Positions 2,776-31,088 of a DNA stretch of 32,535 bases are shown here, one piece after another; within the stretch, counting starts at the first letter, position 1, and every line of letters begins with the position of its first letter. The DNA comes from Pseudomonadota bacterium. Lineage in GTDB: Bacteria > Pseudomonadota > Gammaproteobacteria > Burkholderiales > Chitinibacteraceae. The stretch lies in NCBI GenBank assembly GCA_026399755.1, contig JAPLQI010000038.1:1-32535 (forward strand), in the 5' to 3' direction. A model generated the notes under the pieces. It ran no database searches. It saw only the letters and a list, made by a program, of their open reading frames with translations, and was not told the origin of the DNA. Both the position numbers and the translations under genes were made by a program.

Positions 2776-2986
2776 TCCTTAACCGCCGCTTGCAGAGCGA
2801 ATCTCCACGCGGATTACTACCTTAAAAAGTAATTTTTAGCCCTCATTTAGCAATTTTAGCGGTGTTTTTCTACGCTAAGCCCATAGTTTCACGGCTGAAT
2901 AGCCGATCTCTCCTGCTTATCTTCCCCAGCTATTAAGCCATTATTTTTATAGGGCAATTCATGCCCATTTGTCATTTGAGCATGAG

Positions 2987-2999
2987 ATTGATTATCAAT
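2987..2999. promoter_or_regulatory. Possible second Fur-type half-site palindrome
   Basis: ATTGATTATCAAT is a perfect 13 bp palindrome about the central T, of the AT-rich TGAT/ATCA type found in Fur boxes. It lies 7 bp before the better Fur-box match at 3007-3025. Two adjacent sites would suit cooperative Fur binding. On its own the match to the 19-mer consensus is weak. Confidence 0.35.
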
Positions 3000-3004
3000 A
3001 AACA

Positions 3005-3033
3005 TTGAAGGTGATAATCATTACGAATACAAT
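3005..3033 (+). promoter_or_regulatory. Promoter with embedded Fur box upstream of the iron cluster
   Basis: TTGAAG (3005-3010), 17 bp, then TACAAT (3028-3033) forms a sigma-70-like promoter. The 19-mer at 3007-3025 (GAAGGTGATAATCATTACG) matches the classic Fur consensus at 14 of 19 positions and fills the spacer. A repressor bound there would block RNA polymerase. Position, orientation and the iron genes downstream agree. Actual binding is inferred. Confidence 0.65.
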
Positions 3034-3099
3034 ATGCCGTAGCCATTGGCAATTTCTGCAAAAAACACCCCGCAGCTCATCAAATAAAGCACATCTTCC

Positions 3100-3978
3100 A
3101 TGAAAGTTTTACTCTCGCTTTGCAGCCTGTTTTTAATCAGCTGCACCTCGCTTCCCCCAGCCAAACCCACCGTAGTCGCCGATATGGCTCAATTGGGCAA
3201 GATTATTGATTTAAAAACCGGCGATGTTTTATCGCCTGAGCAACTGCTCAATAAGCTGGCATCGCAGCAACGCGTCGTCGTGGGCGAGCAACACGACAAT
3301 CGCTACCATCACCAAATCGAGCTGTGGCTGGCGCAAAGCCTAGCCAAACAACGCCCGCAAGGCAGTGTGCTGCTAGAGATGCTGAATCCAGATCAACAAA
3401 GCAAGGTCGATAAAGTAAAAGCGTGGCTGCAAGGCAACCCCGTAGTGCGATCAGAACGCATTGCCGAGCTGCTCAATTGGCAAGGGGGGTGGGATTGGGA
3501 TTTATACGGTGATTTAGCCGTGGGCTTGATGCACGCACCATATCCGCTGCTATCGGCCAACCTAGACAAACCCGAAATGCAGGCCATTTATCGCAACAAG
3601 CCGCTGCTGACAGGCGAGCGCTCAGGCCAGCCTGCGGTAAGGGCTAAGATCGAAACCATTGTGCGTGAAATGCACGACAATCAAATTGCAACACCACAAT
3701 TACTATCCATGATTGCTGTACAGCAGCAGCGTGATCGCCGCATGGCCGAACGCCTGCTCGCAGCGCCCACCCCTGCCCTGCTTATGGCTGGCGGCTACCA
3801 CGCCGCTAAAGATGTAGGCGTGCCACTGCATGCCCAAGATCTGGCCCCCACGCAGCCAGTTACTGTATTGATGCTCGCCGAGCAAGGCGCTGAAATAGCC
3901 CTAGCCCACGCAGACTATGTATGGCTCACCCCGCTCGCAGCGAATGAAGCGTGCTTTTGCATTGTGCCTAAGCACTGA
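3100..3978 (+). CDS. chaN: ChaN-like heme/iron-regulated lipoprotein
   Basis: A 292-residue ChaN-family (COG3016) protein. The N-terminus is a lipoprotein signal with lipobox LISC and lipidation at Cys15, so it should be membrane-anchored and face the periplasm or surface. The family hallmark VVVGEQHDNRYHHQIE is present, followed by LLEMLNPDQQ, then a conserved C-terminal part with MIAVQQQRDRRMAERLL and LLMAGGYHAAKDVGVP. The Campylobacter homologue binds heme as a dimer, so a heme-handling role is likely. It is the first gene after the Fur-box-like promoter and precedes exbB by 310 bp, which contains a repeat element. There is no strong Shine-Dalgarno. The ATG is chosen because it begins a good signal peptide. 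Confidence 0.85.
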   Translation: MKVLLSLCSLFLISCTSLPPAKPTVVADMAQLGKIIDLKTGDVLSPEQLLNKLASQQRVVVGEQHDNRYHHQIELWLAQSLAKQRPQGSVLLEMLNPDQQSKVDKVKAWLQGNPVVRSERIAELLNWQGGWDWDLYGDLAVGLMHAPYPLLSANLDKPEMQAIYRNKPLLTGERSGQPAVRAKIETIVREMHDNQIATPQLLSMIAVQQQRDRRMAERLLAAPTPALLMAGGYHAAKDVGVPLHAQDLAPTQPVTVLMLAEQGAEIALAHADYVWLTPLAANEACFCIVPKH

Positions 3979-4016
3979 TCGCGGCACCGCAGGCACTTGT
4001 AAGGCGGATGAAACCA

Positions 4017-4205
4017 AATCCTATCAACTTAAACCAAACCAGAAGATGTGATGTTTTTCGTAGGAGCGGCTTTAGCCGCGAAGGCACTGCTTATTCAAAA
4101 ATTCGCGGCTAAAGCCGCTCCTACGTTACAGATTTCTAAGTTGATAGGATTGGGATGTAACCCGCGAGCCATGGTAGATAAAGACGCGGGTTTCACCCGC
4201 CCTAC
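4017..4205. repeat. Composite dispersed repeat (family A) with nested palindrome
   Basis: The outer inverted repeat AATCCTATCAACTTA (from 4017) and TAAGTTGATAGGATT (from 4138) flanks a perfect 24 bp palindrome (4059-4082 and 4102-4125). To the right follows the ACGCGGGTTTCACCCGCCCTAC end seen in other family A copies. It occupies most of the 310 bp chaN-exbB gap. No ORF of substance is inside. Transcribed from chaN it would form a strong stem that might reduce read-through into exbB. Confidence 0.8.
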
Positions 4206-4288
4206 ACGTATATGTAATACCTAGCAGCAGGCATTTTAAGCCCCCTACATCCCTAGCATTTACAACCATTCCATAAGCATAAAACGAT

Positions 4289-5116
4289 ATGATTATTAAA
4301 CGAACCACAGTACCCGCCTCACACAAAAGCATCGCCTGTATTGCAGCCTTGTTGCTCAGCCACACCGCAATGGCTGCCACTCCGGCCAGCGCGCCACTCA
4401 CGGCCTTGCTGCCTGCGGATATGTCGCCACTTGGGATGTTTTATGCTGCCGACCATGTGGTTAAAAGCGTATTGATCGGGCTAATTTTTGCCTCGCTCGC
4501 CACTTGGGTAGTGCTGTTAGTTAAAGGCTCGGCGCTGTTTTATGCACGCAAAGAAGCTGATCGCGCCATTGCCTTGCTCAAGCAATCTGCATCTTTAGCC
4601 GATGCTATTGCCCGCACCGCCGCTGCGCCTAAGCAAGCTTTGGCACAGCTTTTACTAAACGATGTGCAAGAAGAGCTGGCGCTTTCCCATCAAGGCGCAG
4701 CCACGCAAACGCTAAAAGAGCGGGCAGGATTTCGTCAGGAACAAATCATGGCGCAAAAAGCTCGCCAAATGACTCAGGGCATCGGCCTGTTGGCCACCAT
4801 AGGATCAGTCGCGCCTTTTGTGGGGCTGTTTGGCACGGTGTGGGGAATTATGAATAGCTTTATCGGCATTGCGGCCAGCAAAAGCACCAATCTTGCCACC
4901 GTAGCACCGGGCATTGCCGAAGCGCTGCTGGCCACGGCAGCCGGGCTGGTGGCGGCGATCCCCGCCGTGATTATTTATAACCTATTCAGCCGAGGCATTA
5001 ATCATTACAAAGCGCTGCTAAAAGATGCTTCTGCACAAGTTTTGCTGATGCTAAGCCGTGATCTGGATGTGCCGCAGCGCCTAGAAATCGGCAGCTCATC
5101 CAAGGCAAAGGATTAA
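4289..5116 (+). CDS. exbB: ExbB, TonB-complex proton-channel subunit
   Basis: Inner-membrane subunit of the TonB-ExbB-ExbD motor, which uses the proton motive force to energise outer-membrane receptors. It is 275 residues long with a signal-like N-terminal extension ending [10 protein letters not shown], as in the longer ExbB proteins of other proteobacteria. A first membrane segment lies near residues 58-80 ([18 protein letters not shown]). The MotA/TolQ/ExbB core has [21 protein letters not shown] and then [32 protein letters not shown]. exbD starts 3 bp after its stop. The start codon has no strong ribosome site, but no better in-frame choice keeps the leader. Confidence 0.95.
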
Positions 5117-5119
5117 GTC

Positions 5120-5536
5120 ATGGGCGCTTTCTTTTCTTCTGAAAACGATGAAATCAACGAAGTTCACGAGATCAACGTCACGCCCTTTATTGATGTGATG
5201 TTGGTGCTGCTGATTATTTTTATGGTGGTGTCGCCATTGGCTACGGTCGATCTCAAAATTGATTTACCAGCAGCCAGCGCAGCGCCCGAGCCTCGGCCAG
5301 AAAAACCGGTGTTTATTTCGCTTAAAGCCGATAAAAGCCTTTATCTTGCCGAGCAGGCGGTTTCACTTACCCAGCTTGCTGGGCAACTAGATAGCCAAAC
5401 TGGTGCAGATAAGCAAACCACGCTGTTTTTTCAGGCCGATAAGCAAGCGCAATACGAAGATGTACTCGCCGTGATGGATGCGCTGCGCAAAGCGGGCTAC
5501 TTAAAAGTAGGCCTAGTTGGGCGTGAGGCCGAGTAA
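5120..5536 (+). CDS. exbD: ExbD, TonB-complex subunit
   Basis: A 138-residue ExbD/TolR-family protein with one N-terminal membrane helix and a periplasmic domain. The motif INVTPFIDVMLVLLIIFMVV carries the essential membrane aspartate at D25, the same number as in E. coli ExbD. It begins directly after exbB and its stop codon overlaps the tonB ATG by one base, so the three genes are translationally linked. Confidence 0.96.
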   Translation: MGAFFSSENDEINEVHEINVTPFIDVMLVLLIIFMVVSPLATVDLKIDLPAASAAPEPRPEKPVFISLKADKSLYLAEQAVSLTQLAGQLDSQTGADKQTTLFFQADKQAQYEDVLAVMDALRKAGYLKVGLVGREAE

Positions 5537-6303
5537 TGCACACAGCTCCTCAACCCGGCATGCGCTGGCGCACCGGCATTTTATTGGTTTCATCAGTCTA
5601 TCTCATGCTGCTGTTTATGCTGCTGCGCCAGCCTATCGTTATGCTCGCCAGCCCCATGCCCGCTGCAGCAGTTATGCTGGTGATGGCGCCGCAAATCAGC
5701 TCATCGGCCACTAAGCAGCAACAGGCGGTTGGCGCGCAGCAATCGGTCGCGGTAAAACCAGCCAAGCCCAATAGTAGCAAGCCAGAGAAGATGCCTTCTT
5801 TGGCCAGCGCACAGGCGCCAGTGATTATTGCTGCGGCAGAGAAAACGCATACTGCGCCCACCCCTGCTGCCGATCTAAAACCTGTGCCAGATAAAACGCC
5901 GCCCAGCGACACGCCACCCACGGCAGCAGCCGCCAATAGCAGCGCAGCCCCTGCACCAGCGGCGATTCAATCGGCCCTAACAGCTGCCCCGTTTAATAGC
6001 GATTCGCCATCAAACAGCGCGGCCAGCCTTAACTGGCAAAGCCAGGTGTTGAGTCACTTAGGCAAATACCGGCGTTATCCGGGCGATGCAAGGCTGCGTA
6101 AACAGGCAGGTGCAGCGTGGATAAAACTCACCATAACGGCAGAGGGAAAAGTCCTGAATAAGCAGCTGATTGCCTCCTCAGGCGCACTGATTCTGGACCG
6201 TGAAGCGCTGCAAATTTTAGAGCGCGCCCAGCCGCTGCCATTGCCGCCAAAACTAATACCCATCGTCATCACGCTACCGGTTCGTTTTGATATAGAAAAC
6301 TAA
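5536..6303 (+). CDS. tonB: TonB energy-transducing protein
   Basis: A 255-residue TonB. An N-terminal membrane helix (about residues 13-36) is followed by a long Ala/Pro/Lys/Ser-rich periplasmic spacer (about 50-165) and a typical TonB C-terminal domain (about 170-255). That domain contains LGKYRRYPGDARLRKQAGAA, then LTITAEGKVLNKQLIASSG, LDREALQILERAQPLPLPP and a final VRFDIEN. Its ATG overlaps the exbD stop. A dedicated TonB set beside a receptor suggests a substrate-specific motor and not the housekeeping one. Confidence 0.95.
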   Translation: MHTAPQPGMRWRTGILLVSSVYLMLLFMLLRQPIVMLASPMPAAAVMLVMAPQISSSATKQQQAVGAQQSVAVKPAKPNSSKPEKMPSLASAQAPVIIAAAEKTHTAPTPAADLKPVPDKTPPSDTPPTAAAANSSAAPAPAAIQSALTAAPFNSDSPSNSAASLNWQSQVLSHLGKYRRYPGDARLRKQAGAAWIKLTITAEGKVLNKQLIASSGALILDREALQILERAQPLPLPPKLIPIVITLPVRFDIEN

Positions 6304-6312
6304 ATCCAGCCC

Positions 6313-6336
6313 GCCCGCTGGCTAAAACCAGCGGGC
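6313..6336 (+). terminator. Hairpin between tonB and the peptidase gene
   Basis: GCCCGCTGG, loop CTAAAA, CCAGCGGGC: a perfect 9 bp GC-rich stem starting 10 bp after the tonB stop. No T-run follows, so it is more likely an mRNA-processing or attenuating stem than a full terminator. Confidence 0.45.
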
Positions 6337-6356
6337 ATCCCCATATCGGAAACCCC

Positions 6357-8477
6357 ATGAATCTGCCCTCCTCGCGCTGGCTGCACGCCAGCCTGCTTGC
6401 TGCATTATTTATCCACCAAAGCGCAAGCGCACTTAGCCCGCCCAAGGCTGAGCAAATCCCGCAAATCTTGCAAGCGCATGGCGAGCAGCGTGTGGATAAC
6501 TACGGCTGGCTGCGTGACGATCAACGCAAGGCACCCAAGGTGCTGGATTATCTAAATGAAGAGAATCGCTATACCGAAGCGATGCTAGAGCCTGCGGCTG
6601 AGCTGCGCCACACCCTCTTCTTTGAAATGGCAGGAAGGATTAATCAGCAGGATCAATCCCTGCCTTACACATTGGATGGCTATCAATACCGCGAGCAATT
6701 AATTGCCGGTAAAGAGCACGCTATTTACCAGCGCAAAAAACAACAGGCCAATAGCGAGTGGGAAGTCTTGCTGGATGCCAATTTACGCGCCGCTGGCCAG
6801 CGCTACTACCGCATGGCAGGCATGGAAATTAGCCGCCACAGCCCGCTGATGGCGATTGCTGAAGATTACACAGGGCGACGCCAATACCGCATTGCCATCC
6901 AGAATATCAGCGGCGGCAATGAAGAAACAATCGAAAACACCTCAGGCAATATGGCTTGGGCGAACGATGGCAAATCTTTGTTTTATGTGCGCAACCACCC
7001 CCAAACACTGCGCCCTTGGCAGCTGTATCGACATCAATACGGCAGCGCGCCCAGCAGTGACCAACTGGTTTATCAGGAAGACGACGAGGGCTTTTATTTA
7101 AGCCTCTCTACCTCGTCTTCCCGCCAATACATCCTGCTCACCAGCAATAGCACCTCCACTTCTGAAGTGCGGCTGATCAATGCCGATCAGCCTGCCGCTG
7201 CGCCCGAGCTATTCGCCGCCCGCCAAACGGGGCGCGAATATTATTTAGATCATTATCGCGGCCAGTTTTACCTGCGCGCCAATCATCAAAGCCCGCAGTT
7301 TGGCCTCTACCAAACCGCATCGACCAAAGCGCCTTGGCAAGTATTGATCGCCCCCGATAAAGAGCGCGAACTAGAAAGCTTTGCCGTATTTCGCAGTGCG
7401 CTGATTACTAAAGAGCGCCATCTAGGCCTGTCCCGCATTCGCCAGCTGAGCTGGGATGGCAAATTGCAGCGCGAGCTCAGCTTTGACGACCCAAGCTATA
7501 TGGCTTGGCTGGGCAATAATCCAGATCCAGACAGCACAACGCTGCAATACCGCTACTCATCCATGACCACGCCCACCTCCACTTTTGCCTGGAATCTGCA
7601 AAATGGTGAGCGCAGCCTATTAAAGCAGCAGCAAATCAAAGCCTTTCAGCCACAGGATTACCGCAGCGAGCGGCTATGGCTAAGCGCGCGGGATGGCGTC
7701 AAAGTGCCGGTTTCTCTGGTATATAAAAAATCGCTGCTTAAGCCTGGCAAAAATCCGCTACTGGTTTACGGCTATGGCGCTTACGGCATGAGCATGGATG
7801 CCTCGTTTAGCCCGGCAAGGCTTAGCCTGCTGGATCGCGGCTTTGTGTTTGCTATTGCCCATGTCAGGGGCGGTGGCGAGCTGGGCCAAGCTTGGTATCA
7901 ACAGGGCAAACTGGCCAATAAACAAAATAGCTTTAATGATTTTATCGACAGCACCCAAGGCTTAGTTAAAGCAGGATTTGGCCAGCCGGGGCGCTTATAC
8001 GCTATGGGCAGCAGCGCCGGTGGCCTGCTGGTTGCGGCCAGCATTAATCAAGCGCCTCATCTATTTAATGCAGCGGTTGCCCAAGTACCTTTTGTGGATG
8101 TGCTGAGCACCATGCTCGACCCTAGCCTGCCGCTAACGGTGGGTGAATACGAAGAATGGGGCAATCCACAGCTCAAAGCCGATTACCAGCGCATCAAATC
8201 CTACAGCCCCTACGACGGCATAACAGCCCAGCCCTACCCTCATCTGCTCGTAACCAGCGGCTTGCACGACTCGCAAGTGCAGTACTGGGAACCTGCCAAA
8301 TGGGTAGCCAAACTGCGCGCGCTTAAACAAGGCGACTCCATGCTGCTGCTCTCTACCGATATGAATGCCGGCCACGGCGGCAAATCAGGGCAACTGGGCA
8401 AGCTTAGAAATAGCGCGATGGAATACAGCTTTATTTTGCATCTGGACGCAGAAGCCCAGCGTGCCTTAGCGCCATAG
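6357..8477 (+). CDS. Exported oligopeptidase B-like serine peptidase (S9A)
   Basis: A 706-residue prolyl-oligopeptidase-family protein closest to oligopeptidase B (PtrB). An N-terminal beta-propeller domain starts with the family signature RVDNYGWLRDDQRKAPKVLDYL. The C-terminal alpha/beta hydrolase domain contains LLVYGYGAYG, HVRGGGELGQAWYQQGK and the nucleophile elbow GSSAGG (Ser553). Asp638 (in GLHDSQVQYWEPAKW) and His673 (in AGHGGKSG) complete the triad. Unlike cytosolic PtrB it begins with a signal peptide (LLAALFIHQSASA), so it should act in the periplasm or outside. The family cuts short peptides after basic or prolyl residues because the propeller limits access. It sits between tonB and the TonB-dependent receptor, 53 bp after tonB. 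A role in processing an imported or captured peptide ligand is inference. Confidence 0.9.
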   Translation: MNLPSSRWLHASLLAALFIHQSASALSPPKAEQIPQILQAHGEQRVDNYGWLRDDQRKAPKVLDYLNEENRYTEAMLEPAAELRHTLFFEMAGRINQQDQSLPYTLDGYQYREQLIAGKEHAIYQRKKQQANSEWEVLLDANLRAAGQRYYRMAGMEISRHSPLMAIAEDYTGRRQYRIAIQNISGGNEETIENTSGNMAWANDGKSLFYVRNHPQTLRPWQLYRHQYGSAPSSDQLVYQEDDEGFYLSLSTSSSRQYILLTSNSTSTSEVRLINADQPAAAPELFAARQTGREYYLDHYRGQFYLRANHQSPQFGLYQTASTKAPWQVLIAPDKERELESFAVFRSALITKERHLGLSRIRQLSWDGKLQRELSFDDPSYMAWLGNNPDPDSTTLQYRYSSMTTPTSTFAWNLQNGERSLLKQQQIKAFQPQDYRSERLWLSARDGVKVPVSLVYKKSLLKPGKNPLLVYGYGAYGMSMDASFSPARLSLLDRGFVFAIAHVRGGGELGQAWYQQGKLANKQNSFNDFIDSTQGLVKAGFGQPGRLYAMGSSAGGLLVAASINQAPHLFNAAVAQVPFVDVLSTMLDPSLPLTVGEYEEWGNPQLKADYQRIKSYSPYDGITAQPYPHLLVTSGLHDSQVQYWEPAKWVAKLRALKQGDSMLLLSTDMNAGHGGKSGQLGKLRNSAMEYSFILHLDAEAQRALAP

Positions 8478-8484
8478 CAAATAC

Positions 8485-8543
8485 AAAACCCAAATCCTGA
8501 ACCACGGAGGACACAGAGAACACGGAGTTTCACGGAGAAAAAA
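8485..8543. repeat. Dispersed repeat family B, single arm
   Basis: The AAAACCCAAATCCTGAACCACGGAGG-type sequence continues through ACACAGAGAACACGGAG and TTTCACGGAGAAAA. It matches the left arm of the inverted repeat at 23351-23479 almost base for base. Only one arm is present here, between the peptidase gene and the receptor gene. Confidence 0.8.
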
Positions 8544-8619
8544 TCAAAGAAATGGCTCAAGCCATGCACAGATTTGCAATAAGCCAGCCACAGGCTGACA
8601 TTTATAAAAAGAGGAAGAA

Positions 8620-10881
8620 ATGAAAATTAAGATCATGGCTCAGGCCATTGCCATCAGCATGCTAATCGTTGGCCAACAAGCCCGTGCAGCAGAGGCCCCT
8701 GCCGCCAGCGAAGGCAGTGTGGTGTTTAATCCGCTTAATATTTCTGCAACGGCGATCAATCCTGAGCAAGAAGCACTAGAAAAACCCGGCACTACCAGCA
8801 GCCGTGGCGAAAACATCAAGCTTGAGCCTATAGATCAAATCATGCGCAGCATGCCAGGCACCTACACCCAAATCGATCCGGGCCAAGGCGCAGTCAGCGT
8901 AAATATCCGTGGCATGAGCGGCTTTGGCCGCGTGAATACCATGGTGGACGGCGTCAGCCAAAACTACTACGGCAGCGCTCCTTCCGAGGTTTCTCATGGC
9001 AGTGTTCCAAGCAGCCAGTTTGGTGCACTGATCGATCCTAATTTTATTGTGGGCGTAGATGTTACTCGTGGGGATGAAAAAGGCTCGGCAGGGATTAATG
9101 CTTTAGCAGGTAGTGCCAACTTCCGAACCATCGGTGTAGACGACGTTGTCTTTGCGGGCAACTCATTGGGTTTTAGAAGCAAATTTTCGGCGGGAACCAA
9201 TGGCACCGGGCGCAGCGGAATGATGGCTGTCGCGGGTAAAACAAAAGCATTCACTGATAGCGGCAGTATCGGCATGATGGCCGCCATTAGCAGCAGCTCA
9301 ATTGAGAGCCGTTATAAAAATGCCGAAGGCACGGGCAGCGAAGAGTTTGGGTTTGGCTACAATCAATCCTATAAGCAAAACCCTAAATCGCAATTAGTAA
9401 AGTTAGATATCAAACTTGATGATTTTCATAGCTTCGAATTTTCTGGCCGCCGATATGAAAACAGCTTTACCAAACGAGATATAGAAAGTAACGATTACTA
9501 TATCAAGTATCACTATTCTCCTTATTCCGAGCTGATTGATTTAAACGTGATCGCCAGCAGCGGCCATGGCAATCAAAAATATATGCCGGGCTCATTATTT
9601 ACCTTTACCAATACCAATACAGAAAATAAAGCGGATGCTATTGATATCAATAACACCAGCCGCTTCAGCTTAGGCACGGCCGATGTTTCGTTCAATTACG
9701 GCGGCAAGCTGATGCGTAATCAATATGAGAAGCATGTAGAAAGCCTGATAGAAGACCCGAAGCAAAATCTAGAATCAATTGAAAACAATACCTTTGCACC
9801 GGCAGGTAATCAGCGTATTTCCAGCCTTTACTCTGCATTGCAACTTAATCATGGTATTTTTCAGCTAAATTTAGGCGCAAACTACACCAGCTATAATCTA
9901 ACAGGCTATAAGCCTGCATGTGATGAACGCGTGCAGTGCTTCCCGCAGGGAAGTAGCAATATCTCATTAGAAGAAAGTGGATTTAATCCATCGATTATGC
10001 TGTCTGCCTTTATATCACCTTGGTTCCAGCCTTTTGCCAGCTATGCAAAAACCATGCGCAGCCCGAATCCACAAGAGGTGTTCTTCTCAAATGATGGTGG
10101 TGCATCAATGAATCCCTTTCTTAAGGGCGAAAAATCAGATACCTATCAATTGGGTTTTAACTCAAGTGCCAATGGCTTATTTTTTAAAGAAGATGCTTTA
10201 CGCTTTAAAGCCGTTTACTTCCGAAGCAAGATTAAGGATTATATTGCAAGCCAATCATTCCTTGTCTGCACAGGGGGCCGAAAATGCAGTATGGAAGAAG
10301 TCATTTCCTCGGATTGGACCATTGATAGCGATGACTACATAAGCAATATGCATATCTATGTTAATTCTGCCACTCCGGTTGACACCAGTGGTTTTGAATT
10401 AGAAGCCAATTACGATGCAGGCTTTGCTTATGCTCGCTTATCGTTTAGCCATGAAAACACCAGCCAGCCAACATCCATTGCCAGCGGTTCTTTTGGCGCT
10501 GGTGATATTGGCGATCTGCCAGAAGATTTCTTTAATTTAGATGCAGGTGTACGCTTTTTAGATAAAAAACTGGTGTTTGGTAGCCTTGTTAAATTTACCG
10601 GTACTAATCGAAAACTATCTCCTGATCAGGAATACAACGAAACAAGCGGCGCTTTAGAAAAAGTAAAAAACGAGAAAAACCCTGTTATTGTTGATTTATA
10701 TAGCAATTATCAAATTAGCAAAAATATGTCAGTTAGATTTTCGGTACAAAATCTAATGAACAGAAATTACTCAGAGGCATTAAACCGCCTCAATTCTAAT
10801 CCATCACAATCAAGTAGTGAATCACCCGCCAATACGGCGCGTGGCCGCACTTATTTAGTGGGTGCTGAATTTAGGATGTAA
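8620..10881 (+). CDS. TonB-dependent outer-membrane receptor (heme-type likely)
   Basis: A 753-residue outer-membrane receptor with a signal peptide ending ARA-AE. The N-terminal plug (about residues 45-165) contains VSVNIRGMSGFGRVNTMVDG and GSAGINALAGSANFRT. A long beta-barrel ends NPVIVDLYSNYQISKNMSVRFSVQNLMNRNYSEA and a final aromatic-poor strand YLVGAEFRM. MRSPNPQEVFF and MNPFLKGEKSDTYQLGF resemble the FRAP and NPNL boxes of heme/hemoglobin receptors. I see no histidine between them, although many heme receptors have one there. Two close cysteine pairs (C434/C440 and C550/C556) probably form disulfides in surface loops. A GAGGAA ribosome site precedes the ATG. Heme or heme-protein uptake is favoured by ChaN next door. 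A siderophore or other metal ligand cannot be excluded. Confidence 0.9.
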   Translation: MKIKIMAQAIAISMLIVGQQARAAEAPAASEGSVVFNPLNISATAINPEQEALEKPGTTSSRGENIKLEPIDQIMRSMPGTYTQIDPGQGAVSVNIRGMSGFGRVNTMVDGVSQNYYGSAPSEVSHGSVPSSQFGALIDPNFIVGVDVTRGDEKGSAGINALAGSANFRTIGVDDVVFAGNSLGFRSKFSAGTNGTGRSGMMAVAGKTKAFTDSGSIGMMAAISSSSIESRYKNAEGTGSEEFGFGYNQSYKQNPKSQLVKLDIKLDDFHSFEFSGRRYENSFTKRDIESNDYYIKYHYSPYSELIDLNVIASSGHGNQKYMPGSLFTFTNTNTENKADAIDINNTSRFSLGTADVSFNYGGKLMRNQYEKHVESLIEDPKQNLESIENNTFAPAGNQRISSLYSALQLNHGIFQLNLGANYTSYNLTGYKPACDERVQCFPQGSSNISLEESGFNPSIMLSAFISPWFQPFASYAKTMRSPNPQEVFFSNDGGASMNPFLKGEKSDTYQLGFNSSANGLFFKEDALRFKAVYFRSKIKDYIASQSFLVCTGGRKCSMEEVISSDWTIDSDDYISNMHIYVNSATPVDTSGFELEANYDAGFAYARLSFSHENTSQPTSIASGSFGAGDIGDLPEDFFNLDAGVRFLDKKLVFGSLVKFTGTNRKLSPDQEYNETSGALEKVKNEKNPVIVDLYSNYQISKNMSVRFSVQNLMNRNYSEALNRLNSNPSQSSSESPANTARGRTYLVGAEFRM

Positions 10882-25937: not shown

Positions 25938-26143
25938 GTAGGGCGGGTGAAACCCGCGAACCATGCTGAAAAGTACGCGGGTTTCACCCGCGAACCATGC
26001 TGAAAAGTACGCGGGTTTCACCCGCTCACCCGCGAACCATGCTGAAAAGTACGCGGGTTTCACCCGCCCTACGATGATTCAATGCTTGTTATTGTGTTGC
26101 AGAATCTAGCTAAATTGCTAGGGTTGGGTTTCCACCGCCCTAA
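25938..26143. repeat. Family A repeat with internal 34 bp tandem array
   Basis: The ends are GTAGGGCGGGTGAAACC (from 25938) and GGTTTCACCCGCCCTAC (to 26072). Inside, a 34 bp unit (CGCGAACCATGCTGAAAAGT plus ACGCGGGTTTCACC) occurs three times without mismatch, at 25955-25988, 25989-26022 and 26031-26064, with an extra CGCTCACC before the third. GATGATTCAATGCTTG and a decayed CTAGGGTTGGG tail continue to about 26143. This explains most of the 329 bp gap between GT4 and rlmJ. Confidence 0.88.
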
Positions 26144-27639: not shown

Positions 27640-27658
27640 GCAAATAAGAATCATTATC
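27640..27658. promoter_or_regulatory. Fur-box-like site upstream of the ECF sigma gene
   Basis: GCAAATAAGAATCATTATC matches the Fur 19-mer consensus at 15 of 19 positions, with the right nine bases exact. It ends 24 bp before a TATAAT at 27683-27688, so it would overlap or adjoin the -35 region. This is a better match than the one at 3007-3025. Iron control of the bufferin regulon is inferred from this site. Confidence 0.6.
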
Positions 27659-27660
27659 AA

Positions 27661-27688
27661 TACAAAAGTAAACAAAGCAATATATAAT
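27661..27688 (+). promoter_or_regulatory. Candidate promoter of the sigma factor operon
   Basis: A perfect TATAAT (27683-27688) lies 29 bp before the ATG. The best -35 is a weak TACAAA (27661-27666) with 16 bp spacing, so activation or an alternative sigma factor is possible. Confidence 0.45.
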
Positions 27689-27717
27689 CAAAACCACAAA
27701 CCCGCAGAGCTATCTCC

Positions 27718-28284
27718 ATGGCCATCCGTATCGAAGATCTAGAGCCACTCAGAGATTATCTCTACCGTTTTGCACTCTTCCAATTGCAGCACAGCAGCAG
27801 CGCCGAAGATGCCGTACAGGAAACGCTACTGGCTGCGCTAGAAAAACCCGACTCCTTCAATGGGCAATCGTCTTTAAAGACGTGGCTGACTGGCATTTTG
27901 AAATTCAAAATTATCGACACCCAGCGGCGTATCTACCGCGATCCACTGCTGCTGGCCGCCGTAGATGGCGAAGACGACAACAGTGATTTTGATGTGCTAT
28001 TTAATAAAACCGGCCATTGGGGATCCGATGCGCCAAGACGTTGGGAAAAGCCCGAGGCCAGTTTAGAAGATAAGCAATTTTGGGCAGTTTACGCCCGGTG
28101 TAGCCAGCTTATGCCGCGCCGCACCGCCATGGTGTTCGCCATGCGTGAAGAGCTGGGGCTAGAGATTGAACATATTTGTCAACAATTAGAGATCACCGCG
28201 ACTAATTGTTCAGCAATGCTCTATCGCGCCCGAATGAGTTTGCGCCTCTGTTTAGAAAAAAACTGGTTTGGAAACTCGCCATGA
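27718..28284 (+). CDS. ECF sigma factor of the bufferin operon
   Basis: A 188-residue extracytoplasmic-function sigma factor. Region 2 spans about residues 8-75 (LRDYLYRFALFQLQHSSSAEDAVQETLLAAL, then LKTWLTGILKFKIIDTQRR). Region 4 spans about 125-180 (LMPRRTAMVFAMREELGLEIEHICQQL, then RARMSLRLCL). Between them is an acidic linker (DGEDDNSDFD) longer than in most ECF factors. The stop overlaps the anti-sigma start as ATGA, so the pair is translationally coupled. The gene order onward is what I recall for the neisserial sigma-E (Ecf) operon. It probably transcribes bufA and perhaps itself. The inducer may be copper or oxidative stress. Confidence 0.9.
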   Translation: MAIRIEDLEPLRDYLYRFALFQLQHSSSAEDAVQETLLAALEKPDSFNGQSSLKTWLTGILKFKIIDTQRRIYRDPLLLAAVDGEDDNSDFDVLFNKTGHWGSDAPRRWEKPEASLEDKQFWAVYARCSQLMPRRTAMVFAMREELGLEIEHICQQLEITATNCSAMLYRARMSLRLCLEKNWFGNSP

Positions 28285-28457
28285 TGAACTGCCGCCAAGC
28301 GTCTATTTTATTATCGGCCCAACAAGACGGGCCGCTTACTCTTAGCCAGCGGAGTCGCTTACGCATGCACTTATTTTTTTGTAAAAACTGCCGGAATTTT
28401 AATCGTCAACTACACTTTATGCGGGAAGCGGCCCGTACTCCGGCACATTGGGAATAA
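28281..28457 (+). CDS. Small ZAS/zf-HC2-like anti-sigma factor
   Basis: 58 residues with the zinc-binding anti-sigma signature H30-x3-C34-x2-C37 (MHLFFCKNCRNF) and an extra Cys4. There is no membrane helix, so it is a soluble, redox- or metal-responsive anti-sigma of the type described for MseR of Neisseria, from memory. The start at 28281 overlaps the sigma stop by 4 bp. The longer in-frame extension upstream lies within the sigma gene and is rejected. Metal or thiol oxidation would release the sigma factor, by analogy. Confidence 0.8.
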   Translation: MMNCRQASILLSAQQDGPLTLSQRSRLRMHLFFCKNCRNFNRQLHFMREAARTPAHWE

Positions 28458-28574
28458 AGCCTCCCAAAAAAATTTTTTAAATTTTTATCAGAAATCTTTA
28501 ATCACCACGACTGAATACGCAGGTGTACTTCACACCATAAGCAAGTCATCCGACTTTACCAAGGAGCTATACCG

Positions 28575-28844
28575 ATGAAAACGTCATTGATGCTATCTTC
28601 CGCCCTTGCCGCCGTGATTGGCTGCGCCTCAATTGGCAGCGCTATTGCTGGGCCAAGCGCAGAAGAAATGAAGGCCATGGAAAAATGTTACGGCGTCGCC
28701 AAAGCAGGCCAGAACGACTGTGCTGCAAATGGCCATGCCTGCGCAGGACAAGCGACTAAAGATATGGATAAGGCTGAATGGAAAGCCGTTAAAAAAGGAA
28801 CTTGCGAAAAAATGCACGGCTCCCTAATGGCCCCAAAGCCTTAA
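28575..28844 (+). CDS. bufA: Bufferin-type RiPP precursor (DUF2282)
   Basis: An 89-residue precursor. The signal peptide [16 protein letters not shown]...GSAIA is probably cut before G26, leaving 64 residues with exactly four cysteines: C38, C49, C56 and C76. The core [21 protein letters not shown] with a terminal [10 protein letters not shown] is the DUF2282/BufA1 pattern. In characterised bufferins the two middle cysteines become thiooxazoles that chelate copper, and the whole peptide is exported as a copper-buffering product without leader removal by a dedicated protease. An excellent AAGGAG lies 8 bp before the ATG. The strong ribosome site and the 117 bp gap after the anti-sigma gene suggest high, separately regulated expression. 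Confidence 0.9.
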
Positions 28845-28866
28845 GCTAATTATAAAAGGCTACATC

Positions 28867-29703
28867 ATGACTACACTTCCCACTCAAGCAGGCCTTGGCC
28901 TTCGGTCTCCTCATCTGCCCGAAGTCCTTGCCACACGTCCCAACGTGGCTTGGTGGGAAGTGCATAGTGAAAACTACTTTGGCGGCGGGGCTGCCCCCGC
29001 CACCTTAGAAAAAATCCGCCGCGATTACCCGATCAGCCTACACGGTGTGGGATTAGGCCTTGGCAATGCCGAGCCGCCCGAAGCGCGGCATTTAACACAG
29101 CTGGCAGAATTAGCCGAGCGCATCCAGCCAGCCGCTATTTCTGAGCATCTGGCTTGGAATCGCTACGGCGATGTTTGGTTTAATGATCTATTGCCCGTGC
29201 CGCGCTATGCCGGTGCCATCGACACCCTTTGCGCGCATATTGATCTGGTACAAAGCCGCTTAAAACGCATCATCTTGCTAGAAAATGTTTCCAGCTATAT
29301 CGCCTTTAGCGACGAAACACTCAGCGAAGCCGAGCTACTCGCCCAGCTGGTCGCCCGCACAGGCTGCGGCCTCTTGCTGGACGTCAACAATATGCATGTA
29401 AATCAACTCAATCATGGCATTGATGCCAGGCAAGAGATCGCCCGCCTACCCTTACACCGCGTGGCCGAAATCCACGTAGCTGGGTTTGAATATTGCGATG
29501 GTTTAGTAATCGATACCCATGGCGCACCCGTTTGCGATGCCGTTTGGAAGCTGCTCGAAGACACGCTCAAGCTTACCGGCCCCAAGCCCGTTTTATTAGA
29601 GCGAGACACCAACTTACCCACGCTCAATGGTCTGCTGGATGAATACAGCAAACTTAAAACGCAAATAGCACGGCAGCCGCAATATATTGGAGCAATAGCA
29701 TGA
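28867..29703 (+). CDS. bufB: BufB, MNIO-family (DUF692) iron enzyme
   Basis: A 278-residue TIM-barrel multinuclear non-heme iron-dependent oxidase, the family that includes MbnB. Metal-ligand candidates appear in order: H59 (SLHGVG), E93 and H94 (ISEHLAWN), E139 (LLENVSSY), D172 and H177 (LLLDVNNMHVN), H203 (EIHVAGFE), D216 and H218 (DTHG), and E245 (LLERD). All are the expected positions, so the enzyme should be active. It would oxidise BufA cysteines in the cytoplasm before export, with BufC. It starts 22 bp after bufA, with AGG upstream, and overlaps bufC by 4 bp. Confidence 0.94.
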   Translation: MTTLPTQAGLGLRSPHLPEVLATRPNVAWWEVHSENYFGGGAAPATLEKIRRDYPISLHGVGLGLGNAEPPEARHLTQLAELAERIQPAAISEHLAWNRYGDVWFNDLLPVPRYAGAIDTLCAHIDLVQSRLKRIILLENVSSYIAFSDETLSEAELLAQLVARTGCGLLLDVNNMHVNQLNHGIDARQEIARLPLHRVAEIHVAGFEYCDGLVIDTHGAPVCDAVWKLLEDTLKLTGPKPVLLERDTNLPTLNGLLDEYSKLKTQIARQPQYIGAIA

Positions 29704-30425
29704 ACTACGCTGCTGCTTTAAAAGACTTTAGCCAGATATTTAAAGATGCCGATTACCTACCGCAATCTGTATTAGCCCGTAGCCTTCCATTTTTAGACGT
29801 TTATCGCAATAACACCCTAGCCAATCGCAGTGCAAATCTTGCCAATACTTATCCCACTGTATTGGAATTAGTTGGGGAAGAATTCTTTAGCGCTATGGCT
29901 CGCATATTTGTTGAAAATAGCCAATCTCATTCCGGTAATTTGCATCAAGATGGTGAAAGTTTTCCTGATTTTCTAAGCGCATTCCCCCACGTTAGCGATC
30001 TACCCTATTTAAGCGATGTGGCAAATATGGATTGGGCGATTCATTTGGCGCATTACAGTGCAGATTGCAATAGCATCGCCATAGAAACGCTCGCCATATA
30101 TTCGCCAGAGCAATTTGGCCAATTAAAACTAGCGCTCCACCCTGCTGTTGCTATTATTCAATCTAAGCAATGGCCTATTTATCAAATTTTAATGATGCAT
30201 CATGGTGAAAAAGCGGCAGATTTAAGTGCTGGGGGTGAGCAAGTATGGATATGGCGAGATCATTGGCAATTACTCTCTATCAGCGATGCGCTATTTTTAT
30301 CCAGCCTATTAAATGGCCAAAGCATAGAAAACGCAATGCGAGCAACCACAAATGATGAATACGATGCAGGCCCTATTTTAATTCAATTGTTTAGTCGTAG
30401 TTTAGTTTGCCAAATTAACGCGTAG
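29700..30425 (+). CDS. bufC: BufC, DUF2063 partner protein
   Basis: A 241-residue DUF2063 protein that acts as recognition partner for the DUF692 enzyme. The N-terminal domain (about 1-100) has FLDVYRNNTLANRSANLANTYPTVLELVGEEFF, the family hallmark. A second domain (about 105-241) is less conserved. The start overlaps the bufB stop as ATGA. The TAG stop (30423-30425) is inside the GTAGGGCGGG end of a dispersed repeat, so the original C-terminus may have been a little different. Confidence 0.92.
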   Translation: MNYAAALKDFSQIFKDADYLPQSVLARSLPFLDVYRNNTLANRSANLANTYPTVLELVGEEFFSAMARIFVENSQSHSGNLHQDGESFPDFLSAFPHVSDLPYLSDVANMDWAIHLAHYSADCNSIAIETLAIYSPEQFGQLKLALHPAVAIIQSKQWPIYQILMMHHGEKAADLSAGGEQVWIWRDHWQLLSISDALFLSSLLNGQSIENAMRATTNDEYDAGPILIQLFSRSLVCQINA

Positions 30426-30546
30426 GGCGGGTGAAACCCGCCGAGCTATGCTGAAAGCACGAAAAACGGTGGGTTTCACCCCTACGATGATTCAACATTT
30501 GTAATTGCGCGACAAATTATGGAAAACAACTAAACCGATAGGATTG
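30422..30546. repeat. Family A repeat between bufC and the DoxX gene
   Basis: GTAGGGCGGGTGAAACCCGCCG (from 30422, one base before the bufC stop triplet) pairs with GGTGGGTTTCACC and CCTACG. GATGATTCAACATTTG then continues, ending ACCGATAGGATTG at 30546. It shares ATGCTGAAA with the 25938 copy. A stem here could separate bufABC from doxX expression. Confidence 0.82.
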
Positions 30547-30617
30547 AAGCTAAACCCGCCATTTCATCATCCGTATAAAATTATATATCACGCTTTATTC
30601 CTATCTAGGTGATCACA

Positions 30618-31088
30618 ATGAAAAAACGTCTTTTTCAACTTTATGGCTACTATCGCTGCGCCGAATCATTATGCCTACAATATCTAAGCCCAATATTTAG
30701 TCTGATATTGCGCATTTATTTAGCACAAGTTTTCTTTTTATCTGGCCTGACTAAAATACGCAATTGGGATGGTACTTTATTTTTATTTAATTTCGAATAC
30801 CAAGTGCCACTTATTCCACCTGAAATAGCCGCCATCATGGCCGCTGGGGGCGAGCTTATTCTGCCCATATTACTCATTAGCGGCACCCTAGGGCGATTTG
30901 CGGCCGTGGGTTTATTTATTCTCAATGCAATGGCCGTTATTTCTTACCCAGCCCTGCTGCCCATCGCCCTCAAAGATCATTATCTCTGGGGCTCATTACT
31001 CGCCGTATTGGCCATCTATGGTGCGGGAAAATGGTCGATAGATGAATGGCTTAATCGCTGCTACACAATAAGCAAGATTAAACCTTAG
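30618..31088 (+). CDS. DoxX-family membrane protein
   Basis: A 156-residue protein with four membrane helices and the DoxX signature LRIYLAQVFFLSGLTKIRNW near the N-terminus, then GGELILPILLISGTLGRFAA. The ATG at 30618 has AGG 8 bp upstream and is preferred over an in-frame GTG at 30609. DoxX genes commonly end DUF2282/DUF692/DUF2063 operons, so this is probably the membrane member of the bufferin system. Its exact job there is unknown. It is 192 bp after bufC, with a repeat in between. Confidence 0.87.
   Translation: MKKRLFQLYGYYRCAESLCLQYLSPIFSLILRIYLAQVFFLSGLTKIRNWDGTLFLFNFEYQVPLIPPEIAAIMAAGGELILPILLISGTLGRFAAVGLFILNAMAVISYPALLPIALKDHYLWGSLLAVLAIYGAGKWSIDEWLNRCYTISKIKP

Follow-up and report, generated by a model that had tools for sequence, protein, structure and literature searches.

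A DUF2282-type bufferin cluster with an MseR-like sigma/anti-sigma pair and a probable internal promoter in a likely Iodobacter genome

The six-gene cluster and its relatives

The stretch of DNA analysed here (the window; 32,535 nucleotides) is one whole contig, JAPLQI010000038.1, of a 4.95-Mb bacterial genome. At 27718-31088 it carries six intact genes, all on the + strand, which together resemble a bufferin cluster preceded by its own extracytoplasmic function (ECF) sigma factor. The sigma gene (27718-28284, 188 aa), of the TIGR02943 family, overlaps through an ATGA the gene of a soluble, MseR-like zinc-binding anti-sigma (ZAS) protein of 58 aa (28281-28457). Next come bufA (28575-28844, 89 aa), encoding a DUF2282 bufferin precursor with four mature cysteines and, as judged by eye, a signal peptide, bufB (28867-29703, 278 aa), encoding a maturase of the multinuclear non-haem iron-dependent oxidative enzymes (MNIO, DUF692), and bufC (29700-30425, 241 aa), encoding the DUF2063 partner protein. 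Finally, doxX (30609-31088, 159 aa), for a DoxX-family membrane protein, is a likely member of the cluster, being found 3' of bufC in many, not all, relatives.

All six proteins reach the Pfam cut-offs. The sigma factor matches sigma-70 r2 and r4_2, and the scores, in bits against the cut-off, are 36.6 vs 22.2 for the anti-sigma (zf-HC2), 80.6 vs 22.4 for BufA (DUF2282), 322 vs 25 for BufB (PF05114), 64.6 vs 27.2 for BufC (DUF2063) and 60.7 vs 23.6 for DoxX. NCBIfam cut-offs are passed by three proteins, namely the sigma factor (TIGR02943, 235 vs 162), the anti-sigma (NF052368, 75 vs 50) and BufB (NF050167, 340 vs 310); the best matches of BufA (BufA2 model, 25 vs 60), BufC (29 vs 142) and DoxX (54 vs 80) stay under theirs. 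The gene and family assignments are practically certain. An earlier, sequence-only reading of this DNA had described six genes on one strand, the ATGA overlap and a bufferin-type cluster that is complete in its genes and has a dedicated ECF sigma factor, and is borne out on these points.

The same reading had drawn attention to the H-x3-C-x2-C motif of the 58-residue anti-sigma, to four mature BufA cysteines and to a full set of BufB ligand residues, and conservation supports all three. In the anti-sigma, H30, C34 and C37, together with C4, are invariant among 22 distinct sequences. The mature cysteines of BufA are almost invariant, C49, C56 and C77 being present in 44/44 relatives and C38 in 43/44, where the sole exception (L018) is poorly aligned. 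As for BufB, H59, H94, E139, D172, H203, D216, H218 and E245 are kept in all 51 relatives and match identical letters in the alignment with 3BWW; we take these eight residues to be metal (iron) ligands. Searches of solved structures with BufC and with the anti-sigma gave no match. The anti-sigma is short and, as judged by eye, has no membrane segment; a Pfam search of this zf-HC2 protein found no match to NrsF, a membrane anti-sigma factor.

The nearest named relatives of BufB are two Iodobacter records, at 92% identity, and a metagenome-assembled genome labelled Janthinobacterium, at 95%; judging from these relatives, the genus is probably Iodobacter. BufB is 89-96% identical in six other genomes of the genus, with the sigma and anti-sigma genes in front. 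Because these six genomes carry the same arrangement, the cluster is not a chance assembly.

The gap between bufC and doxX measures 183 nt and contains a palindromic dispersed repeat, located by a repeat scan at 30426-30443 (no strand assigned). Since this gap divides the two genes, doxX may be on a separate transcript. The repeat, GGCGGGTGNAACCCGCCG, also occurs in the window at 4184, 25942-26068, 27152, 32353 and 32396; its scan gave 11 matches at three mismatches or fewer, against 0.03 expected, two places being counted on both strands.

An ECF-type site ahead of bufA

Directly before bufA, positions 28487-28512 of the + strand hold an ECF-type promoter-like site, ATCAGA-N15-CGACT, which scores 10/11 against GTMAKA-N15-CGACH. 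Among the relatives, the consensus is GTMAKA-N14 to N16-CGACH, the spacer nearly always being N15. The main count was made in 43 loci, that is 55 minus 12 set aside as duplicates (two of these 12, L042 and L048, are not duplicates). A site at 10/11 or better stands before bufA in 32 of the 43, where mononucleotide shuffles would give 1.8. Its distance to bufA is 65 to 131 bp, with one doubtful case at 167 bp (L052). Before the sigma gene, no region out of 22 reaches this score (0.7 expected from mononucleotide shuffles). The stricter Iodobacter form, with N15 only, was counted in 38 loci outside the Iodobacter operon set, 37 from other genera plus a divergent copy in genome G003; half of them (19/38) score at least 10/11, against 0.11 expected from dinucleotide shuffles. 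Dinucleotide-shuffle counts, like those with the Neisseria consensus discussed below, include L042 and L048 and drop only rows sharing the last 100 upstream bases. Moreover, the site still precedes bufA where the sigma gene lies elsewhere in the genome, at 11/11 in G018 and at 10/11 in G010, G003 and L006 (the record matching G020). Since the site is kept before bufA and not found before sigma, the sigma factor most likely acts at an internal promoter to transcribe bufABC, and it seems quite likely that the ECF-type site before bufA is that promoter.

Thus, the sequence-only reading was right about the genes of its operon but overlooked the promoter-like site before bufA, and its single operon led by the sigma gene was an over-reading, as the placement of the sites suggests two transcription units. 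In Neisseria, the corresponding operon is reported to be polycistronic and autoregulated (PMC2893595). It could be imagined that the sigma, anti-sigma and bufABC-doxX genes likewise form one polycistronic operon with a single autoregulated promoter, the site before bufA not being the promoter of this sigma factor. Such an organisation would suit genes that share a strand and are separated by short gaps, as well as the fact that the bufA site does not stand out with the Neisseria consensus alone. It fits poorly with an ECF-type site before bufA and none before sigma in 22 regions, and with G003, where the sigma/anti-sigma pair has no adjacent bufABC and the distant bufABC has a 10/11 site; we regard it as improbable.

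Distribution and gene order also bear on the relation between the sigma factor and the cluster. Searches covered 41 genomes, including that of the window, at E 0.001 for bufB (distant MNIO genes being counted too) and at E 1e-20 for sigma. A bufB match is present in 28 genomes and sigma in 27. Both occur in 25 genomes and neither in 11; bufB alone occurs in three (G015, G025, G028) and sigma alone in two (G030, G034; Fisher P 7e-6, not corrected for kinship). No anti-sigma match was found in G001, G015, G025 and G028. Outside the genus, sigma and anti-sigma adjoin in 18 of 19 sigma loci, and the anti-sigma very probably controls its cognate sigma factor, presumably by binding and inhibiting it. 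The pairing of DUF2282 with a ZAS protein is not unique to the window, bufA and anti-sigma matches being found together in many relative loci. Sigma precedes bufA in Iodobacter, a Formivibrio and a Propionivibrio; it is placed after doxX in Andreprevotia, most Trinickia and others, and is distant from bufB in G010, G018, G020, G033 and G036. The neighbour of the pair in G003 is an RlmJ-like gene; bufABC is absent there, and the genome has a divergent bufABC at another locus. These two G003 loci (L108 3972-4714 and L109 3096-4968) look as if the pair had been kept at its old place. Elsewhere, bufA is duplicated in tandem ahead of bufB (L009, L013, L024). About 125 nt separate sigma from anti-sigma in L004 (3274-3401), L005 and L037; by eye, this spacer resembles the damaged start of an anti-sigma gene joined to the end of a sigma gene, as would be left by the collapse of a tandem copy.

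Several observations weigh against an MseR-like sigma/anti-sigma pair acting through the site before bufA. The 43-locus count is partly circular, because the site was first read by eye in those loci, and the window itself has an A in the -35 element where most loci have G. The site is missing in 11 of the 43 loci, including the sigma-first L023, L026 and L053. G033 (L054) lacks it although sigma is present elsewhere in that genome; conversely, G015 (L041), a two-contig genome, has an 11/11 site and no sigma (E 1e-20) or anti-sigma was found in it. The published Neisseria consensus, GTMAGBWTT-N12/13-CGTCTAAH, is similar in layout; it reaches a shuffle P of 0.05 or less in 3 of 44 loci, at another place in one of them (L027), and the window scores P 0.33 with the strict sigma-E form. 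A genus-wide exact scan returned five pattern matches, against six for the reversed control; they are the bufA site in four genomes and one place in G001 where no gene begins immediately 3', and the scan thus found no further regulon members. From published work, deletion of rpoQ in Cupriavidus raised, rather than lowered, gig expression (PMC10304878), expression of N. meningitidis sigma-E was unchanged by oxidants, and His30 of MseR was dispensable or replaceable, whereas its cysteines mattered (PMC2893595). Finally, the DUF2282 precursor differs from the EGKCG type of the published ZAS-controlled clusters. As a detector, the strict Neisseria sigma-E consensus was set aside, real upstream regions not being separated from shuffles.

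In Neisseria and Haemophilus, msrAB is likewise under the control of sigma-E and RpoE2, respectively (PMC2893595, PMC7907618). This raises the possibility of a general role for the pair in the response to oxidation (methionine sulfoxide), with bufABC as an incidental target. One MsrA-family match was found in each of nine genomes of the genus, and eight upstream regions were read (none from L107, and only 100 nt for L104). Seven of the eight score 7-8/11; the eighth, L101, reaches 10/11 and belongs to G001, a genome without this sigma. Given also that sigma co-occurs with bufB, a general oxidative role appears unlikely. Apart from L101, no ECF-type site above 9/11 was found before sigma, doxX, msrA or a second MNIO cluster of the window's genome. 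This second cluster (L084, G000:C52, 3-1565) comprises a small Cys-rich precursor with GKCG motifs and HvfB-like and HvfC-like genes; the HvfA model gives 18.7 bits against a cut-off of 95, and all its genes stay under the NCBIfam cut-offs.

A Fur-box-like site ahead of the sigma gene

A second element overlooked by the sequence-only reading lies in front of the sigma gene. The palindrome TAAGAATCATTATCA (27645-27659, no strand assigned) has two mismatches to the Fur-box consensus TGATAATNATTATCA, and is followed at 27683-27688 (+ strand) by TATAAT, read from the sequence as a possible -10 element of a sigma-70 promoter for the sigma gene. The position of this TATAAT is kept in five of seven Iodobacter loci, and a consensus promoter scan lists nothing there. 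Compared with 500 dinucleotide shuffles of the 200-bp upstream region, TAAGAATCATTATCA is equalled once. Across the seven sigma-first Iodobacter operons, the site has two mismatches in four, the window's included, with at most 1/500 shuffles as good. A point that tells against Fur control is that the site is degenerate in the other three (L003, L037, L038; four to five mismatches). It has six mismatches in G003, and five at best in 17 loci of other genera, as in the 19 sigma loci outside the genus.

Two readings of this site have to be weighed. It may be an AT-rich upstream promoter element without any role for Fur, which we hold to be slightly the better bet, or, here and in part of the other Iodobacter, Fur with iron may repress both genes of the sigma/anti-sigma pair, which we propose only tentatively. 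The loss of the site in the three Iodobacter operons, in G003 and in other genera speaks for an AT-rich element, as does the genome-wide background: 42 sites are found at two mismatches or fewer, against 23 in the reversed control, so the site alone is weak evidence. At one mismatch or fewer the genome holds eight sites, and just four are by iron genes (a TonB-dependent receptor gene has the perfect one, a single siderophore-interacting gene has two and tonB has one); of the remaining four, three are next to sbcD, a DUF2325 gene and a radical SAM gene, and one has no long frame nearby. With these eight sites as a yardstick, our estimate for an AT-rich element was raised a little from an even chance. 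An AT-rich element accounts less well for the identical 15-mer that recurs on contig 80 (L082 883-3594, G000:C80) before the genes of an imelysin and a di-haem oxidoreductase, for the only perfect site of the genome preceding a TonB-dependent receptor gene, and for the 1 or 0 in 500 shuffles as good in four loci.

PerR was provisionally set aside as a binder of the site, given that the genome has only two Fur-family matches. Two further Fur-like sites lie in the window at 2983-3026, ahead of ChaN-like, ExbB, ExbD, TonB, prolyl-oligopeptidase and TonB-dependent receptor genes, and 2983-10881 appears to be an iron or haem uptake block.

Under Fur control, a two-step gate can be envisaged, with the same reserve, for some Iodobacter. 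Fur would set the amount of sigma and anti-sigma, and a metal or thiol signal would then free sigma to act at the internal bufA promoter. If true, a copper-buffering peptide would be wired into the iron-starvation response of some Iodobacter, a link that is directly testable in this genus. Among the papers listed by literature searches, none reported a Fur-gated bufferin sigma factor; the available text of PMC3240639 mentions Fur in two roles only, the regulation of nspA and that of a putative target for a sigma-E small RNA.

Proposed mechanism and comparison with known systems

Overall, the locus is probably a DUF2282-type bufferin cluster under an MseR-like sigma/anti-sigma pair, with the sigma factor firing bufABC from an internal site. 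By analogy with the systems discussed below, it can be proposed that the cytoplasmic ZAS protein holds the ECF sigma factor by means of its zinc- and cysteine-containing site. Stress from a thiol- or metal-reactive agent, presumably copper or an oxidant, would disturb this site and free the sigma factor, which would then transcribe bufABC, and perhaps doxX, from the ECF-type promoter directly before bufA. BufB and BufC would convert the cysteines of the precursor into thiooxazoles, and the peptide, exported by Sec, would bind copper in the periplasm.

Bufferins are reported to sequester copper (PMC12452194), and MNIO products to form thiooxazoles and bind copper, gonophorin taking up 1-2 Cu (PMC13097082). 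Thiooxazole modification and copper binding of BufA are, by this analogy, likely. The complete copper-buffering system claimed earlier is complete as to its genes, but its copper role has homology to these peptides as its sole basis. The Cupriavidus gig genes respond to gold as well as copper (PMC10304878), and this, together with the Fur-like site in front of sigma, could suggest gold, zinc or iron, in place of copper, as the metal that the cluster buffers or uses. In view of the copper bound by bufferins and gonophorin, we give this little credence.

Soluble ZAS control of homologous MNIO operons was shown by experiment for MseR of N. meningitidis (PMC2893595) and HrsE of H. influenzae (PMC7907618). 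The small soluble ZAS regulator proposed from the sequence is therefore upheld, but its pattern, already published for MNIO clusters of Neisseria and Haemophilus, is not new. As here, the Neisseria sigma-E/MseR operon NMB2140-2145 and the gonococcal ngo (gonophorin) cluster have a sigma gene followed by a soluble ZAS gene with C4/H30/C34/C37, controlling precursor, MNIO, DUF2063 and DoxX genes. The likeness to Neisseria noted earlier holds for sigma and ZAS; it had missed that the precursor of the published ZAS clusters is of the EGKCG type (PMC13097082). This type is reported for the gonococcal precursor, and the meningococcal one is presumably the same, given the same gene arrangement, whereas a DUF2282 precursor is found here. 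Moreover, Neisseria has DoxX at the far end from sigma and one autoregulated promoter, whereas here sigma comes first and a separate site precedes bufA. Neisseria sigma-E also has an msr target, and no ECF-type site precedes msrA here in genomes with sigma. The Haemophilus RpoE2/HrsE pair with the hvf (oxazolin) cluster likewise combines a small cytoplasmic ZAS protein (67 aa) with a sigma-dependent MNIO cluster; it differs in that sigma lies beside msrAB and not the cluster, the precursor is of the EGKCG type and the response is to hypochlorite (PMC7907618).

The Caulobacter-type SigF/NrsF (ECF16) cluster shares the DUF2282 precursor, MNIO, DUF2063 and DoxX. Its anti-sigma is NrsF (PMC12452194), in contrast to the soluble 58-aa zf-HC2 protein here, a difference that the sequence-only reading had correctly seen. 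PMC12452194 names NrsF as the anti-sigma of DUF2282 clusters, and zinc, ZAS and zf-HC2 are absent from its main text. Cupriavidus gigPABT-rpoQ-rsqA has the same four kinds of cluster genes and an ECF sigma pair, in a divergent layout and with RsqA predicted to be membrane-bound (PMC10304878). Sinorhizobium RpoE7 (ECF16) also acts over DUF692/DUF2063 genes, and its listed promoters have an upstream element of the GTAACA type, but it belongs to another ECF group and has EcfR7 as its anti-sigma (PMC6180224).

The site before bufA offers a concrete candidate promoter for bufferin genes in several beta-proteobacterial genera. The parts and logic of the cluster are known, and its novelty is modest; the pairing of DUF2282 with ZAS, the separate bufA site and the possible Fur gate would make it a variant. 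It joins the DUF2282 bufferins, with NrsF or a membrane anti-sigma, to the small ZAS anti-sigmas of EGKCG clusters, two lines otherwise described apart in the papers as available.

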